Origin: an uncultured Roseobacter sp.
Lineage (GTDB): Bacteria; Pseudomonadota; Alphaproteobacteria; Rhodobacterales; Rhodobacteraceae
Assembly: GCF_947496515.1 (NCBI RefSeq)
Contig: NZ_CANMDB010000002.1
Span: forward strand, 124,001 to 188,000
DNA: 64,000 nucleotides
Direction of reading: 5' to 3'
Each line of letters opens with the position of its first letter. The first letter of the stretch is position 1. The position numbers were made by a program, and so were the translations under genes. Shown piece by piece: positions 7,015-60,237 of the stretch. The notes under the pieces are model-generated. The model was not told the DNA's origin and did not search any database. It worked only from the letters and a program-made list of their open reading frames with translations.

Positions 7015-8096
7015 ACTACCATGCCGCATGAATATCGGCTGTGCAATGGATCGGCGGCAAAACTCTGACGTGAGGTGCTTGCCTCGCCCGGGATAGTCCT
7101 TTCTTCCCGCGGTCCGGGGCCTCAAAAGCGGCTCCGCCGCAGATTTCGTGTAGAACGCTCAGGGGCCGCTTTAGAAACGATAGCCCGGGGTCTTCGGGAC
7201 AGGTCGGAGTGGCAGCAGCGATACGCACCGTTCCGGGCAAGCGGCGGCTCGCGACCGGGGCTGCGCGCACGTCCATCATCTTGTCGCGGTTGGTCTACAG
7301 TGGGTGGCACGTTTCAAACCGCGTCAACACTCCGCTGATGGAGGTGGCCGTGGCGCGCGCCGGGCTGGTTGCGGGACGTGTGGCGGCGCAGATTTCGGGG
7401 GCGCGTTCTGCCAGCCTTGCGCTCGGCGGGGTGGGTGCGGGCTACCTGCCGACGGGAGAGGCTATTCCCATCGACTAGGATCGCCATGATCGGCGCGATG
7501 TCCGGCCAGTATGATGCGCTGTTCAGGGCCTGGATCAGTGGCCTTCGATGAACAGTTAAACGCCGCGTCGTGAGCGGGCACAGGCTGAACATCTCCTCGC
7601 GGTTTGCCGGATCAACCGGAGCTTGGGAGATCTTATTTTCAATACCTTAGAAGTGCAGTGAATCGCGAACGATACGCCCCTCATCGGCGAGGGCAGGTTG
7701 CCGTTCACGGCATGAACGCGAGCGGAGCGTCGCTGGTGAGTGGCGGGTCTATCGTCCTTGTGGCTTTGATTACCGCGCATCCTAGCTGGCGATTGCCGAT
7801 ACGCCTCAGCTTGTGGGAGTTATCCATTCGAATCCGCCAGACGTCCCCAAAGGACGCGGCATGAGTTCCGCGCGTGTTGTCGGTACTTCGCGCCGCAGAA
7901 ACGAGGGCGGGAAGGGGCTGCCATGAGCCGAATGCGTAGCCCAACCGGCGGTCAGCGCCTTGGGCCTTCTGCAGGCGTCGGCACATACCGGAGAAGCGGC
8001 GTCTCCAGCGAAAACTTCGACAACACGTCGCCGATTGACCGGCACCAACCGGTTACAGGCGGGACCGTCGATCCGAGCCGTGGCTCGACCGCGGCC
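7015..8096. other. 1.1-kb gene-free region
   Basis: No open frame here has a recognisable domain, a consistent ribosome binding site, or the codon bias of neighbouring genes. One plus-strand stretch (about 7310-7480) encodes an Ala/Gly-rich peptide ending GYLPTGEAIPID that could be the 3' relic of a decayed gene, but I cannot name it. No rRNA, tRNA or tandem repeat was found. The region begins with the zrg promoter and ends at the 3' end of parE. Confidence 0.5.
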
Positions 8097-26738: not shown

Positions 26739-29700
26739 ATGTGCGCCGATACGACCGACACCGCCCCGAAACACGACTATAAGTCGACGCTGAACCTGCC
26801 GCGCACCGATTTTCCGATGCGCGCGGGTCTGCCCAGGCGCGAGCCTGAGTGGCTCAAACGCTGGGACGAGATTGGTGTCTACGACAGGCTGCGCGAGAAG
26901 GCCGTCGATCAGCGGCGCGACGGTGGCAAGGGCGCGCGCGCGCCCTTCACGCTGCACGACGGTCCCCCCTACGCGAATGGCCATCTGCATATCGGGCACG
27001 CGCTCAACAAGACCATCAAGGACATGATCGTGCGCTCGCATCAGATGATGGGATATGACGCGCGCTACGTACCGGGGTGGGACTGCCACGGGTTGCCCAT
27101 CGAGTGGAAGATCGAAGAGCAATACCGCAAGAAGGGCCGCAACAAGGACGATGTGCCGATAAACGAGTTCCGGGCCGAGTGTCGCCAGTTCGCCGAGCAT
27201 TGGGTGCACATCCAGCGCGAGGAGTTCAAGCGGCTGGGCATTACCGGCAACTGGGCGGATCCGTACCTCACCATGGACTTCCACGCCGAACGGGTGATCG
27301 CCGAGGAATTCATGAAGTTCCTGATGAACGGCACGCTCTACCAGGGCTCCAAACCTGTCATGTGGTCGCCGGTGGAGCAGACAGCGCTGGCCGAGGCGGA
27401 AGTGGAGTACCACGACAAGGAAAGCTTCACGATCTGGGTGAAGTTTGCCGTCGTCGCTGCAGGCGACGACGGCAACCCCGGCCCCCGAGCCGGGGTCTCC
27501 GGCAGTGGAGAGATCCCGGGTCAAGCCCGGGATGACGCGGGAGTGGGAGTGCAGGAGACCCCGGGTCAGGCCCGGGGGGGCGACACAGGCGACCTGAAGG
27601 GTGCCTATGTCGTCATCTGGACCACCACGCCCTGGACCATGCCCTCCAACAAGGCTGTCGTTTACGGGCGCGACATCTCCTACGGGCTCTATGAGATCAC
27701 CGGTCGGCCTGAGGAAAGCTGGGTCAAGATCGGCGAGCGTTACTTGCTCGCCGATAGTATGGCTGCAGACGTACTGATGCGCGCCCGGCTCGACGACAGC
27801 ATGTACCGTCGGCTCCGCGACGTGAGCACCGAGGAGTTCCAAGGGCTGCGGCTCAGCCACCCTCTGAATGCACAAGAGGGTGCGGAGGGCGAATGGGACG
27901 ACCTGCGCGATTTCCGGGCGGCAGACTTCGTGACGGACACCGAAGGCACCGGCTTTGTGCACTGCGCGCCGTCGCACGGGATGGAGGAGTACGAGCTCTA
28001 CCGCGATCTGGGCATGCTGCAGCAGGTCATCACCTACAATGTCACCGACGAGGGCATGTTCCGCGCCGATCTGCCGTTCTTCGGCGGCAAGTTCATCCTC
28101 AACCGCAAGGGCAAGGAGGGCGATGCCAACACCGCTGTGATCAACAAGCTGGCGGAGGTCGGCGGCTTGCTCGCACGTGGCAAGATCAAGCACAGCTACC
28201 CGCATTCCTGGCGCTCCAAGGCGCCGGTGATCTACCGCAACACGCCGCAGTGGTTCGCAGCCATCGACAAGCCCGTCGGCGACGGTCTGGACATGCACGG
28301 CACCACGATCCGGGAACGCGCGCTGACCGAGATCGACAATGTGAACTGGACGCCCAGGACGGGGCGCAACCGCCTGCATTCCATGATGCAGGCCCGGCCC
28401 GACTGGGTGCTGTCGCGCCAACGGGCCTGGGGCGTGCCGCTGACCTGTTTCACCAAGAAAGGCGCATTGCCGACGGATCCTGATTTCCTTTTGCGAAACG
28501 AAGCGGTCAACCAACGGATCGTGGAGGCGTTCGAGGCCGAGGGCGCGGACGTCTGGTATGCAGACGGCGCAAAGGAGCGGTTTCTCGGCGGGATCGTGGA
28601 TCCGGACGCCTATGAGCAGGTGATGGACATCCTCGACGTGTGGTTTGACAGCGGGTCCACCCATGCCTTCACCCTGCGTGACCGGGCGGATGGGACAGAG
28701 GACGGCATCGCGGACGTCTATATGGAGGGCACGGACCAGCACCGCGGCTGGTTCCATTCCTCGCTACTGCAATCGGTGGGCACCACCGGGCGCGCGCCTT
28801 ATCGCAATGTGGTGACCCATGGCTTCACGCTCGATGCCAAGGGCATGAAGATGTCGAAATCCATCGGCAATACCATCGTGCCGGAGGAGGTCGTCAAGCA
28901 ATACGGGGCCGATATCCTGCGGCTGTGGGTGGCGCAAACGGACTACACCGCGGATCAGCGCATCGGGCCGGAGATCCTGAAAGGCGTGGCCGACAGCTAC
29001 CGCCGCCTGCGCAACACGATGCGCTACATGCTGGGATCGCTCAGCGATTTCACGGAAGCCGACCGTGTGGCGCCCGAGGAGATGCCGGAACTGGAACGTT
29101 GGGTGCTGCACCGTCTCGCGGAGCTCGATCAGGTCGTGCGCGAAGGCTACGCCGCATTCGATTTCCAGCGGGTGTTCTCGGCTGTCTTCACCTTTGCGAC
29201 GGTGGATCTCTCGGCGTTCTACTTTGATATCCGCAAAGACGCGCTCTACTGTGATGGCGATACGGTAGAACGGCGGTCCGCGCGCACGGTGCTGGATCTG
29301 CTGTTTCACCGGCTGACCACGTGGCTGGCACCGGCGCTGGTCTTTACCATGGAAGAGGTCTGGCTGGAGCGGTTCCCGGGTGAGGGCAGCTCTGTCCATC
29401 TTCAGGATTTCCCTGAGACGCCAGACACTTGGCTGGATGCTGAACTGGCCGAGAAATGGGCGGCGGTACGGGCCGCCCGCCGTGTCGTGACGGCAGCACT
29501 GGAAGTCGAACGAACCGCCAAGGTGATCGGTGCCTCGCTGGAAGCGGCGCCGGTGGTGTATGTGGCGGATGAGACGTTGCGCGCGCATCTGCAGGCGCTG
29601 CCAGCTGCGGATATCTGCATCACCTCGCAGATCACGGTGAGCGGAGAGGCCGCCCCCGACGGTGCCTTTACCCTGCCTGAAGTCCCAGGTGTGGCGGTCG

Positions 29701-30658: not shown

Positions 30659-31384
30659 TCAGACGCTATGATCGCCGTTGCGCAGGGGCAGGATTTGCTG
30701 AGCAACCCCGGCGAAGACCAGATAGACTGACGTGACCACCAGCCCCCAATGCGCCCAGCTGTCGGGGTAGAAATCAACCCAGGCCGCCCAGCCCGCAAAG
30801 AAGGTCCAGGCCAGTGCCATGGGCAGCGTGATCACCCGCCAGCGTTCCGTGCGCACGGGATGCACGAACTTCAGCGGCAGGAACATCGCAACCGCCAGCG
30901 CCGTGACCAGTGCGAGGCTGACCCAGAAATTCGGCTGTAGCGCAAAGATCACCAATACCAGCATGTTCCAGCAGCCGGGAAAGCCGGAGAAGGAATTATC
31001 CTTTGTTTTCATGCGGGTATCGGCGAAATAGAGCGCCGAGGCGAAGGTGATGACGATGATCGCAAACCAGCCGGTCCAGCCGTCCATCAGCCCGGACTTG
31101 AAGAGCGCAAAAGCCGGAATGAAGACGTAGGTCAGATAGTCGATGATGAGGTCGAGCAAGACGCCGTCGAACTCGGGCGCGTTCTCCTTGACATCATAGT
31201 GCCGGGCGAGCGGGCCGTCGATGCCATCCACGAAGAAGGCCACAACGAGCCACAGGAACATGAGGTCCCATTTCTCATCGACCGCCGCCAGCATCGACAA
31301 CATTGCAAAGACCGCGCCGGTCGCGGTGAACAGATGCACGCCGAGCGCGCGTAACCTCAATCCCATCCGGTGTTGATGCCGCAT
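30659..31384 (-). CDS. pcs: Phosphatidylcholine synthase
   Basis: 241 residues with about eight transmembrane segments. The CDP-alcohol phosphotransferase motif is present: DGIDGPLAR...EFDGVLLDLIIDY (D-G-x2-D-G-x2-A-R...G-x3-D-x3-D). The length and the YLTYVFIPAFAL and FPGCWNM segments fit bacterial Pcs, which condenses choline with CDP-diacylglycerol to make phosphatidylcholine in the inner membrane, a common route in alphaproteobacteria. ATG 31384 is used; ATG 31366 is possible; neither has a good Shine-Dalgarno. Upstream lies an 11-bp repeat element (31509-31606). Confidence 0.9.
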   Translation of the reverse strand: MRHQHRMGLRLRALGVHLFTATGAVFAMLSMLAAVDEKWDLMFLWLVVAFFVDGIDGPLARHYDVKENAPEFDGVLLDLIIDYLTYVFIPAFALFKSGLMDGWTGWFAIIVITFASALYFADTRMKTKDNSFSGFPGCWNMLVLVIFALQPNFWVSLALVTALAVAMFLPLKFVHPVRTERWRVITLPMALAWTFFAGWAAWVDFYPDSWAHWGLVVTSVYLVFAGVAQQILPLRNGDHSV

Positions 31385-31983
31385 GATCGGGTGACATGCA
31401 AAAGGAAAAACGATCCGTGCGGATCTGCTGTGGAAGGATGAAGGACGCGTACGCGCAACGGCCGAGCGAGGCGAGAGGCGTGCCGGGAACGAGGGCGCGT
31501 CGCGCCTTTGTTTTGCGGAGGGATGGCGCGTCGGTATCCTGTCGGTATCACGTCGGTATTGTGTCGGTGCGCGCGGCGGTATCCGGCCTGTGCCTTGGGT
31601 TTGTTAAGCCTGCGGAAAGAGAGTTTGCGCAGAGGGTTAAGCGCGCGTCCGGACCTTGCGCGGTGTCGGTCGGATGTCTGTTCAACCGCGCCGCACGGAT
31701 GTCTGACGAGCCCCTGCAGGTGTTTCGGCTGCAAAGACGGCGATATGGAATACCGCGGCCGGTCGGCATACGCGCTGTTCCGACGGTTTCGACAGGCCAG
31801 ATTGGCGCGCCCTTCCGGCCCGATGGTCCGGGACGCCGGTGATGCCGAGGCACTACGAGAGCCCCCGTACTGCCTTCAGGACGTGGTTTCGCGGTGCAGG
31901 AGAACGCGTCAGCGCAGGCGCGACTTGTGGGCCTGGGCGAAGGGCCTTGCAAGGCCCTTGGCGCCTAGCGGCGACCGAGGGGC
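31385..31983. other. 600-bp intergenic region containing an 11-bp repeat element
   Basis: The region separates pcs from xerC, both on the minus strand. It holds the direct-repeat element at 31509-31606. The remaining sequence has small open frames on both strands without family signatures. A duplicated AAGGCCCTTGCAAGGCCCTTGG segment occurs near 31939-31962, close to the xerC 3' end. No terminator with a clear T-tract. Confidence 0.5.
31509..31606 (-). repeat. 11-bp tandem direct-repeat element, copy A
   Basis: On the plus strand: TGTTTTGCGG, an 11-bp gap, then four 11-bp units beginning GTCGGT (31530, 31541, 31552, 31563), then GGGTTTGTTA at 31597-31606. The units are GTCGGTATCCT, GTCGGTATCAC, GTCGGTATTGT and GTCGGTGCGCG. 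The same layout appears at 60128-60237. Both elements lie upstream of minus-strand genes (145 bp before the pcs start here). The 11-bp period puts each unit on roughly the same face of the helix, as for a cooperative protein-binding array. Confidence 0.82.
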
Positions 31984-57582: not shown

Positions 57583-60027
57583 TCAGTAGCCCACCCGCCA
57601 CTGGGGTTTAGGGGCGGGCAGGTTGGCGATGCCCGCCGTTTCCATGAGGCGCGCGGCCTCTTCGGCCAGCAGCTTCTCCTCCGCCAGCCCTTTGACGGGG
57701 ACGCGACCCGCTTCCAGAAAGAGAGGGGCGGCCAGCGGCGTCACCCGGGACAGGACCAGATGGTCGATGCGACCGTCGATGCGGGTTGCCATCTCCTCAA
57801 TCCGGCCGAAATCCACCAGACCGCGCAACGCTTCCTCGCGGGTGATGTCCAAGAGCAAGTGCTCGGGATCATATTTATGCAGCGTATCGTAAAGAATGTC
57901 TGAACTGAACGTTGCCTGCCGTCCTGACTTGCGCGCCGAGGGCGTGTTGCGCTGGATGAGACCGGCGATGGTGGCGCTGGCGCGGAAGGTGCGCTTCATC
58001 ACGGCGTTACCCGCGAGCCATGTTTCCAACCCGTCCTGCAAGGCCTTGATATCAAAGAGTGGTGCGGGATTTTCCAAGGGGTCGAGCCCCCAGATCAGCG
58101 TGGCGTAGTCGGTCGCGACGAAGCCCATTGGATTGAGCCCCATCTCTTCCATCCGCTTGGAGAGCAGGAGGCCCAGCGTCTGCTGGCCGTTGCGCCCGGC
58201 AAAACCGTAGATGACCGTCTGCTCGCGCCCGTCATGGGGAAAGCTCTCGATGAGCAGGCGCCCGGGGCGGGGCAGTTGGCTGACCTCGCGCTGCAGCGCC
58301 AGCCACTGGGCGGTGTGATCGGGCAGGTCGGGCCAGCTGTCTTGCTGGAACATCTCCACCACCCGGGCTGACAGCTGGGTCGAAGTGGCGAATTTGGTGC
58401 CCATGAAGGTGGCCACCTTGGGCTTCTTGGCGGCATTGCGGCTGACCTCCACCGTCATCTCGCGCAGGCCCTCGTAGCGCACGATCTGGCCGCCGATGAG
58501 GAAGGTATCGCCGGGGGTCAGGGTGGCGGCGAAGCCCTCCTCGATCTCGCCCAGAGGCTTGCCGCCGCGCGCGCGCCGCAGCCGCACCTTTAGGGTATCG
58601 GTGTCCTGTATCGTCCCGATATTCATACGAATTTGCCGGGCGGCCCGGGGATCGCGCAGCTGCCACTGGCCGTCGGGGCGCTGTTGCAGACGCTGCCAAT
58701 GATCATAGGCGCGCAGGGCGTAGCCACCGGTCGCGCAGAAGTCGAGACAGGCGTCGAATTCCGCCCGGGTCAGGGCGGCGTAGGCACCGACGGTGGTGAC
58801 TTCGGCGTAGAGATCGCCCGCGTCGAAGGGGCCGGCGGCGGCGGTGATCAGCATGTGTTGGCAGAACACGTCGCGGGGGCCGCGGCCGCGCGGGTCGCCG
58901 TCGAGGGTGCCCTCGCGGACAGCATCCAGCGCGGCCACGCATTCGACCACTTCAAAGCGGTTGGCGGGCACCAGAAGCGCCTTGGACGGCGCATTGTAGC
59001 GGTGGTTGGCGCGCCCGATCCGCTGCACGAGCCGCTTGACGTTCTTGGGCGCGCCGATCTGGATGACGAGGTCCACATCGCCCCAGTCGATGCCCAGATC
59101 GAGGCTTCCGGTACAGACGATGGCGCGCAGGTCGCCGCGTACCATTGCGGCCTCCACCCGTTCACGCTGTGTGCGATCCAGCGAGCCGTGGTGGATCCCG
59201 ACGGGCAGGCTGTCTTCATTGGCAAGCCACAGATTATGAAAGAAAATCTCCGCCTGCGCGCGGGTGTTGTGAAAGATCAGCGTGGTCTTGTGCTGGCGGA
59301 TCTGGTCGAGCACGGCGGGGATCGCGTAGGCCGCACCGCCCCCCGACCACGGCGGTGCCTCGGCGGTTTGCAGCATGGAGATGTCGGGGGCGGGGCCCGG
59401 GTCCGCCTCGAGGATCTCGCAGGGATCGGGATGGCGCGCGAGCTGGTGGGCGATGGCTTGCGGGTCCTCCACCGTGGCCGAGAGGCCGACGCGCTTGAGA
59501 TCCGGGCAGAGCCGCTGGAGGCGGCCCAGGGCCAGCATCAGCTGATCGCCGCGTTTGCTCTCCGCCAGAGCGTGGATTTCATCGACCACCACGCGCTGCA
59601 GGCCCTTGAACATGCGCGGCGCGTCCTCGTAGGAGGTGAGCAGCGCGAGGCTTTCGGGCGTGGTCAACAGGATGTGCGGCGGGTCGGCGCGCTGGCGCTT
59701 TTTGCGGCTGGCGGGCGTGTCGCCGGTGCGGTCCTCGATGCGGATGGGCAGGCTCATCTCGGTCACCGGAGTGGTGAGATTGCGTTTGATATCAGCGGCT
59801 AAGGCCTTGAGAGGCGAGATGTAGAGCGTATGAAGCCCGTCGCGGGGATGCTCGGCCAGATCGACGAGGGTTGGCAGGAAACCGGCCAGCGTCTTGCCGC
59901 CCCCGGTGGGCGCGATGAGCAGGAGGGCGGGGGCTGCCGCCCGGTCGAGCATCTGTCGCTGGTGGGGGTGGATGGACCACCCGCGGGCGGCGAACCAGTC
60001 GGTGAAGCAGGCGGGCAGAACAGTCAT
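57583..60027 (-). CDS. Ligase-associated Lhr-like DEXH box helicase
   Basis: 814 residues from ATG 60027 (MTVLPACFTDWFAARGW). RecA-1: HQRQML, Walker A APTGGGKTLAGFLP, motif II VVVDEIHALAESKRGDQ, motif III GLSATVEDP. RecA-2: LIFHNTRAQAEIFF, SLDLGIDWGDVDLVIQ, QRIGRANHR. The winged-helix and Lhr-core domains follow. Length fits the ~800-residue ligase-associated form rather than the 1500-residue Lhr. It is followed by pdeM. Upstream frames to 60225 are not conserved. An 11-bp repeat element lies 100-210 bp upstream. Confidence 0.92.
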   Translation of the reverse strand: MTVLPACFTDWFAARGWSIHPHQRQMLDRAAAPALLLIAPTGGGKTLAGFLPTLVDLAEHPRDGLHTLYISPLKALAADIKRNLTTPVTEMSLPIRIEDRTGDTPASRKKRQRADPPHILLTTPESLALLTSYEDAPRMFKGLQRVVVDEIHALAESKRGDQLMLALGRLQRLCPDLKRVGLSATVEDPQAIAHQLARHPDPCEILEADPGPAPDISMLQTAEAPPWSGGGAAYAIPAVLDQIRQHKTTLIFHNTRAQAEIFFHNLWLANEDSLPVGIHHGSLDRTQRERVEAAMVRGDLRAIVCTGSLDLGIDWGDVDLVIQIGAPKNVKRLVQRIGRANHRYNAPSKALLVPANRFEVVECVAALDAVREGTLDGDPRGRGPRDVFCQHMLITAAAGPFDAGDLYAEVTTVGAYAALTRAEFDACLDFCATGGYALRAYDHWQRLQQRPDGQWQLRDPRAARQIRMNIGTIQDTDTLKVRLRRARGGKPLGEIEEGFAATLTPGDTFLIGGQIVRYEGLREMTVEVSRNAAKKPKVATFMGTKFATSTQLSARVVEMFQQDSWPDLPDHTAQWLALQREVSQLPRPGRLLIESFPHDGREQTVIYGFAGRNGQQTLGLLLSKRMEEMGLNPMGFVATDYATLIWGLDPLENPAPLFDIKALQDGLETWLAGNAVMKRTFRASATIAGLIQRNTPSARKSGRQATFSSDILYDTLHKYDPEHLLLDITREEALRGLVDFGRIEEMATRIDGRIDHLVLSRVTPLAAPLFLEAGRVPVKGLAEEKLLAEEAARLMETAGIANLPAPKPQWRVGY

Positions 60028-60127
60028 GACACGCAAGATAGAGGGGCAGGCGATGGGCGCCAGCCCCGAAACGGCGCAACGCACGGTGGGGGGAAGCGCC
60101 CGGCGGGCCGAATCAGCGGTTAACGCC

Positions 60128-60237
60128 TGTTTTGCGGGGGAAAGCCACGTCGGTATGACGTCGGTAAAACGTCGGTATTGCGTCGGTGCCATGTCTGTCC
60201 CGGGCGGGATTAACAGGGCGACCACCGGGGTTTGTTG
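60128..60237 (-). repeat. 11-bp tandem direct-repeat element, copy B
   Basis: Plus-strand order: TGTTTTGCGG (60128-60137), an 11-bp gap, four units starting GTCGGT at 60149, 60160, 60171, 60182 (GTCGGTATGAC, GTCGGTAAAAC, GTCGGTATTGC, GTCGGTGCCAT), then GGGTTTGTTG at 60228-60237. Flanks, spacing, unit number and even the shift to GTCGGTGC in unit four match copy A at 31509-31606. It lies 121 bp before the lhr-like gene start and 17 bp after the oxidoreductase stop. Confidence 0.82.

Follow-up and report, generated by a model that had tools for sequence, protein, structure and literature searches.

Two arrays of direct repeats in the window

The window, that is, the whole stretch of 64,000 nucleotides analysed here, belongs to the genome of a Roseobacter (G000; 4.93 Mb in 61 contigs) and carries two arrays of 11-bp units (Table 1). 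Array A adjoins a phosphatidylcholine synthase-like gene (pcs), whose best NCBIfam match falls under its curated cut-off and which has no Pfam match at 1e-5; array B adjoins the gene of an Lhr-type DEAD helicase. Both arrays are real and sit where an earlier note on this DNA had placed them, with the left TGTTTTGCGG, the 11-bp gap and the GTCGGTGC fourth unit that it described in each. The second unit of array B, however, reads GTCGGTAA and not GTCGGTAT. As for the matching GGGTTTGTTR ends, the sequence is indeed present in both (in array B at 60228-60237), but its distance differs, 28 bp past the fourth core in array A versus 40 bp in array B.

The pattern GTCGGTATN3GTCGGTAT, with up to three mismatches, has six matches in the window against 0.20 expected, a number reached by none of 100 shuffles, and a de novo detector of 11-bp periodicity made exactly two calls over the 64 kb, namely arrays A and B.

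Table 1. Coordinates of the two arrays, of their scaffold elements and of the adjoining genes in the window.
Feature	Position	Strand	Remarks
pcs-like gene (phosphatidylcholine synthase-like)	30659..31384	-	adjoins array A; context, not shown as target
TGTTTTGCGG, probable left-scaffold remnant of array A	31509..31518	+	by eye
Array A, four dialect-A units, 11-bp period	31530..31570	+	cores at 31530, 31541, 31552, 31563; last is GTCGGTGC
GGGTTTGTTA, probable right-scaffold remnant of array A	31597..31606	+	by eye
Lhr-type DEAD helicase gene	57583..60027	-	adjoins array B; context, not shown as target
GAATC (GANTC, presumed CcrM-type site), scaffold of array B	60110..60114	+	
GTTAAC, left scaffold of array B	60119..60124	+	
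TGTTTTGCGG, left scaffold of array B	60128..60137	+	
Array B, four dialect-A units and a degenerate fifth	60149..60198	+	GTCGGT cores at 60149, 60160, 60171, 60182; fifth, GTCTGT, at 60193
Right scaffold of array B, ATTAACAGGGCG ... GGGTTTGTTG	60209..60237	+	

Recurrence in the genome, the genus and the family

What had been described as a pair turns out to be two of at least 45 dispersed arrays fetched and counted in G000. In this genome GTCGGTN5GTCGGT occurs 123 times and a three-unit pattern with one mismatch 101 times, while the reversed-pattern controls gave 0 for both. The unit, GTCGGTATNRC, defines what we call dialect A. Three units of GTCGGTAN4 match seven of 39 genomes (G011 84, G000 63, G010 8, G012 6, G006 5, G018 2 and G007 1), with 0 in the other 12 congeners and in all 20 genomes outside the genus of that set. 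Across the family the distribution is patchy, with 22 of 394 genomes and 21 of 393 genera positive. A separate scan gave at least 112 stretches; the 80 named records among the matches listed are Rhodobacteraceae or related alphaproteobacterial entries, and they include Roseovarius, Pseudooceanicola, Shimia, Salinihabitans and Sulfitobacter. The pattern search of the own genome and of relatives that the earlier note proposed as a check therefore finds the array in both, related genera included. That note had named two outcomes that would count against it: only two copies without conserved unit number or spacing, or no consistent gene context. The former is not what we found, copies, spacing and many positions being conserved; the latter is, as described below.

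Within the unit, 25 pairs of orthologous dialect-A arrays show mismatch rates of 0.05, 0.01, 0, 0, 0 and 0 at positions 1-6, which are favoured, as is position 7 in part, by the search patterns, so that the conservation of the core is partly built in. Positions 7-11 of the same pairs give 0.11, 0.22, 0.49, 0.38 and 0.12, and of these positions 8 (T) and 11 (C) are free of the search patterns.

Several origins were considered and rejected along the way. An RNA element was discarded on 0 Rfam matches at E up to 1 for both arrays. A phage or plasmid origin was rejected as well: of the 45 stretches in viral records that match a loose pattern, 43 have unrelated flanks and spacers by eye, and a query of array B with its flanks, short and of low power, matched neither plasmid nor phage entries at E 0.01. 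The other two viral-filed stretches (L276 and L289) resemble the array family by eye; L289, from a contig filed as viral, carries a dialect-A array at 7972-7999 beside a head-tail gene cluster resembling a gene transfer agent (by eye). Among the matches listed in the open-access literature on Roseobacter and Rhodobacteraceae repeats and on the motif string, there was no account of the element.

A second dialect

Some congeners devoid of dialect A have another 11-bp array at the livG and lpd sites; its unit, GTRCACANNCT, defines dialect B. Three units of GTRCACN5 match seven of 29 genomes (G009 36, G016 28, G005 23, G007 21, G011 3, G001 2 and G004 1), counts in which places are often entered on both strands because GTGCAC is palindromic. 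The ten other congeners of that search, from which G017 was left out, and its 12 genomes outside the genus had 0 matches, as had the controls; G018 has none. In the family, 27 of 394 genomes and 27 of 393 genera match, with 3 control hits in that table. GTACAC is preferred in G016 and GTGCAC in G009 and G005. Placed in a common frame, GTCGGTATNRC and GTRCACANNCT share GT....A, and constraint is also seen at unit positions outside the search patterns in both, namely T, R and C in dialect A and A, C and T in dialect B.

Only one genome of the family scan, G295, carries the two dialects together (19 three-unit matches to A and 26 to B). It comes from outside the genus, and the two of its loci that were read (L133 and L560) contain no mixed array. 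With few positives, one overlap against about 1.5 expected is no evidence of exclusion between the dialects. Within the genus, G007, otherwise a dialect-B genome, has one dialect-A array at livG (L118/L351), which does not differ from the G006 array. In G011, a dialect-A genome, a single dialect-B locus was seen (L405, contig C16, 48464-48491); it has a transporter permease gene on either side, both named by eye, and may have arrived by horizontal transfer.

A scaffold common to both dialects

The earlier note took the sequence around the two arrays to be unrelated. On the contrary, the flanks of array B are a scaffold common to other arrays, of which array A retains only pieces (by eye). In full, this scaffold consists of a GANTC site, GTTAAC, the array and then TTAAC, and it is found in part of the arrays of both dialects. 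Of 200 A contexts, 59 have a GTTAA/TTAAC box at 12-80 bp ahead of the array, as do 32 of 82 B contexts, and TTAAC follows the array at 20-40 bp in 51 of 200 A and 16 of 82 B contexts, versus 0.005 per 20 bp; in these scaffold counts, B loci with palindromic cores are entered on both strands. The left box is preceded by GANTC, at no more than 14 bp, in 26 of 59 A and 8 of 32 B cases, compared with 10 of 686 boxes elsewhere, and the reversed control, CTNAG, gives 0 (A), 1 (B) and 26 (boxes elsewhere). The N of the scaffold GANTC is A in 28 cases, C in 4 and T in 2, and this variation points to a methylation site rather than to a fixed word, presumably one of the CcrM type.

Flank models built from the A arrays of G000 and G011 also recognise B arrays of G005, G016 and G009 by their flanks (best 7.9e-8), and none of the matches of these models with E below 1 falls away from an array. 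In other genera, 15 of 15 left-model and 24 of 26 right-model matches lie at arrays, two B loci (L570 and L564) among them, although the best A match of that set, L201, is G011 itself and has to be discounted. One site illustrates the case by eye: scaffold and array are present with dialect A in G000, G011 and G018 and with dialect B in G004, G005 and G016, while G010 and G012 have an A array without scaffold and 11 others no array.

Orthologous sites and helical frame

Comparison of sites was based on 45 arrays fetched from G000, 40 from G011, 20 from G016, 12 from G009, 8 from G005 and 17 from other congeners, those of G011 and G005 being only part of the arrays listed there. By protein matches on both sides and with the same orientation, 16 pairs are orthologous between G000 and G011, and six between G000 and G016, that is, between dialects. 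Hence 6 of the 20 fetched B sites of G016 pair with A sites of G000, none of them flipped (P 7e-8, assuming 45 array gaps random among 4000). Overall 17 flipped pairs were reported, most of which involve G009 or G005, whose palindromic GTGCAC makes orientation ambiguous; in two, however, both sites are of dialect A (L092 paired once with L425 and once with L114), and these count against a fixed orientation.

At shared sites the two dialects tend to keep the same helical frame. Taken modulo 11, A and B cores are on average 1.44 positions apart over nine sites, versus 2.75 expected (P 0.0016). The median offset is 0 at valS and lepB, so that agreement is exact by median at only two of the nine; it is 1 at livG and at the L084 site, 2 for lpd, chorismate mutase, radA and the L102 site, and reaches 3 at gltD. 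Landmarks were set separately for livG, lpd, valS and lepB and taken from the gene finder for the remaining sites; two shared groups (L095 and L062) were left out, as the landmark genes predicted for their members were not the same.

These shared sites bear on whether the arrays could be low-complexity intergenic minisatellites arisen by chance, which would fit tandem units of varying number. We consider this extremely improbable. A scan at eight other periods found nothing in 400 kb of G016; in 400 kb of G302 each of these periods scored once, presumably on a run of N. At 11 bp the detector called one array in the former and one array plus a run of N in the latter. This detector is specific rather than sensitive: within the G302 stretch sampled, an array of three units listed at 246381 went uncalled. 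Scaffolds and unit constraint also argue against minisatellites, and the reversed-pattern controls of the own genome, together with the shared sites, do so for the whole set. Over 1.58 Mb of fetched loci (L121-L260, L306-L416 and L497-L573), most of them fetched for holding arrays or flanking array sites and hardly sampling other genera, the detector called 147 A arrays, 42 B arrays and 2 others; these two look like chance, and a third 11-bp motif was rejected.

Gain at valS and probable dialect changes

The array inside valS, a housekeeping gene, allows filled and empty states to be compared. Between two conserved motifs, this gene measures 105-108 bp in seven array-less congeners and 135 bp in the four genomes with A and the three with B, the arrays thus adding 27 to 30 bp, with cores in an identical frame in all seven array genomes. 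Two further genomes are without an array at 123 bp (G001) and 132 bp (G018), and the segment has diverged in G013, G004 and G016, which carry no array there either. Two separate clades, G003/G017 and G006/G014, agree in their empty state, which therefore looks ancestral, and the arrays appear to have been gained. Such a gain needs an insertion or copying process, and a model of protein and sites supplies none.

This is where a selfish or insertional repeat, of the REPIN/RAYT or Rickettsia palindromic element kind, has to be weighed. It would be spread by a trans-acting enzyme recognising the unit, and the dialects would be element families reusing the same permissive sites. The valS gain over the empty state of separate clades suits it, and so do dispersed and patchy occurrence, in-frame presence in coding genes, random spacing in G302, apparent decayed remnants (by eye) and the lack of any functional theme seen among the sites. 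On the other hand, the agreement of A and B in frame at shared sites is not predicted by independent insertion, no inverted or palindromic ends were noticed in the copies read, and no duplicated target site was identified; as for a MITE or other miniature transposon, neither terminal inverted repeats nor target-site duplications were noticed by eye in the aligned scaffolds or in empty versus filled valS. All things considered, we regard a selfish repeat as somewhat unlikely. Rickettsia palindromic elements also occur in frame inside protein genes, a trait they share with the arrays, but these are non-palindromic, made of constrained 11-bp units, and use the same places in two dialects. REPINs, too, are palindromic, whereas our units are head-to-tail direct repeats with a non-palindromic GTCGGTA core (in dialect B, GTGCAC is palindromic and GTACAC is not). 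What the arrays have in common with REPIN/RAYT systems is an intragenomic sequence population that persists in some lineages, as described in an excerpt of PMC8049555.

A tree of five genes (1460 columns) places the B genomes in two clades, {G009, G001} and {G005, G007, G004, G016}, the second of which also holds the array-less G013; both are found among genomes with A, remnants or nothing. At the lpd site, apparently decayed A units are seen by eye in G013, G002, G015, G008 and G014. Judged from this tree, the dialect would have changed at least twice within the genus, possibly helped by transfer between species.

Gene context and chromosomal position

With genes called by a home-made gene finder, we listed 62 arrays of six genomes, 45 of them from G000. 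Nine of these 45 lie in convergent gaps, and the remainder in tandem and divergent gaps in both orientations. Nine overlap a predicted gene. Four of them are in frame with Pfam support, in CobN, in valyl-tRNA synthetase (valS), and near the C-terminus of a CysG-like and of a DUF3623 protein; of the other five, four concern short frames or frames starting in the array, and one is array B with a helicase frame that is too long. The idea that arrays are tied to lying 120-150 bp before genes, drawn from the two in the window, does not survive this larger sample, in which every gene orientation occurs.

We also rejected promoter control of pcs and of the Lhr gene, orientations being indifferent and the pcs site not conserved. 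Between pcs and a xerC-like gene, none of 17 congeners has an array of dialect A or B, the gap measuring 37-175 bp in 10 of them and 744-776 bp in seven; G016, whose two genes are some 5 kb apart, was outside this check. In a comparison of flanks, the site of array B had no match to other fetched loci.

A broader form of regulation would be the regulon of an OmpR/PhoB-family global response regulator similar to ArcA, with one winged-helix monomer per unit and control of neighbouring metabolic genes. Excerpts of PMC3798270 describe E. coli ArcA sites as mostly three to five direct repeats with predominantly 11-bp centre-to-centre spacing, and these arrays show the same number, spacing and one helical turn per unit; the neighbours of shared sites include lpd, icd, leuD, gltD and a livG-like gene. 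Yet ArcA is a transcription regulator, and the arrays do not keep to the promoter location expected of such operators: they are also found in convergent gaps and inside coding sequence, in either orientation relative to genes, and in two dialects at shared sites. Because of this indifference to orientation and the location inside genes, ordinary promoter control is argued against, and we hold such a regulon to be unlikely.

Some chromosomal proteins, such as SlmA in nucleoid occlusion and the matS-binding protein of a macrodomain, have tens of dispersed binding sites per chromosome, and nucleoid-occlusion sites would be expected to be absent from the terminus region. The arrays are similarly dispersed in tens, but they are multi-unit direct repeats and show no exclusion from the terminus in G302. 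In that genome the spacing of 38 arrays is as random (CV 0.97), and arrays at 1.01 and 1.13 Mb bracket the terminus, estimated by GC skew from 20 samples per genome near 1.04 Mb (between samples at 0.95 and 1.13 Mb), with the origin near 2.65 Mb. By the same estimate, the origin of G016 lies near 2.6-2.85 Mb and its terminus near 0.1-0.35 Mb; its 20 arrays leave one gap of 1.44 Mb (P 0.033), which runs from the terminus along one replichore only. Even spacing and terminus exclusion were therefore rejected on the random spacing and the arrays about the terminus in G302, and a structural role is without positional support from the spacing in this genome. Of the 38 arrays in G302, 26 are oriented with replication (P 0.017), a figure that could result from the strand bias of genes alone.

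A putative reader of the arrays

We observed dispersal, a unit consensus, a scaffold shared by the dialects, orthologous occupation by A and B and a common frame; a trans-acting reader would be the simplest cause, given the constraint, the helical phasing, the apparent decay in congeners and the dialects. The proposal of the earlier note, that the arrays serve a DNA-binding protein with one helical turn per unit, gains support at the sequence level from their recurrence in the genome and in related genera. We give an even chance to the arrays being dispersed chromosomal sites for a putative sequence-specific DNA-binding protein that acts chromosome-wide and whose specificity co-evolves with its sites. 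Such a protein would contact some seven bases of each 11-bp unit, with three to five monomers stacking on one face of the helix, at tens of arrays scattered in intergenic gaps plus a few permissive coding places. One protein family would read both dialects, and its role would lie at the level of the chromosome, not of one promoter. The GANTC site would suit a coupling to replication, and suggests a tie to it.

By analogy, the closest known systems would be ArcA direct-repeat sites for the architecture and DNA uptake sequences for the switching of code. DNA uptake sequences are single short motifs present in hundreds or more per genome, versus tens of multi-unit arrays here, where only multi-unit occurrences were counted. 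In Neisseriaceae they are dispersed and form species dialects (excerpt of PMC3630211), a property that the arrays share.

A bolder reading, which has less than an even chance but which we see as possible, is that the arrays form a chromosomal address code, in which GANTC-bearing elements keep position, orientation and a near-enough helical frame while the letters read by the protein are exchanged. Judged by the tree, this exchange would have happened at least twice within one genus, even inside valS, and methylation of GANTC could make the reading replication-dependent. We know of no system of site and protein dialects of this kind. If true, the code would perhaps hinder DNA exchange between species or mark the chromosome in step with replication. 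A concerted difference in binding code over many fixed sites would be a natural experiment in the joint change of a DNA-binding protein and all of its sites, and species with A, with B, with both (one genome) or with apparently decayed arrays should allow the protein to be found by comparison and its function to be tested. Were the arrays linked to replication, they would add a new level to the chromosome biology of this widespread marine family.

Other repeats in the window

An isoleucyl-tRNA synthetase-like frame (named by eye) contains, at about 27460-27610 on the plus strand, a low-complexity insert in which PGQAR motifs recur, perhaps a further case of a repeat inserted in frame. Positions 1300-1498 hold a tandem repeat with a period of about 108 bp and, in part, of 27 bp.
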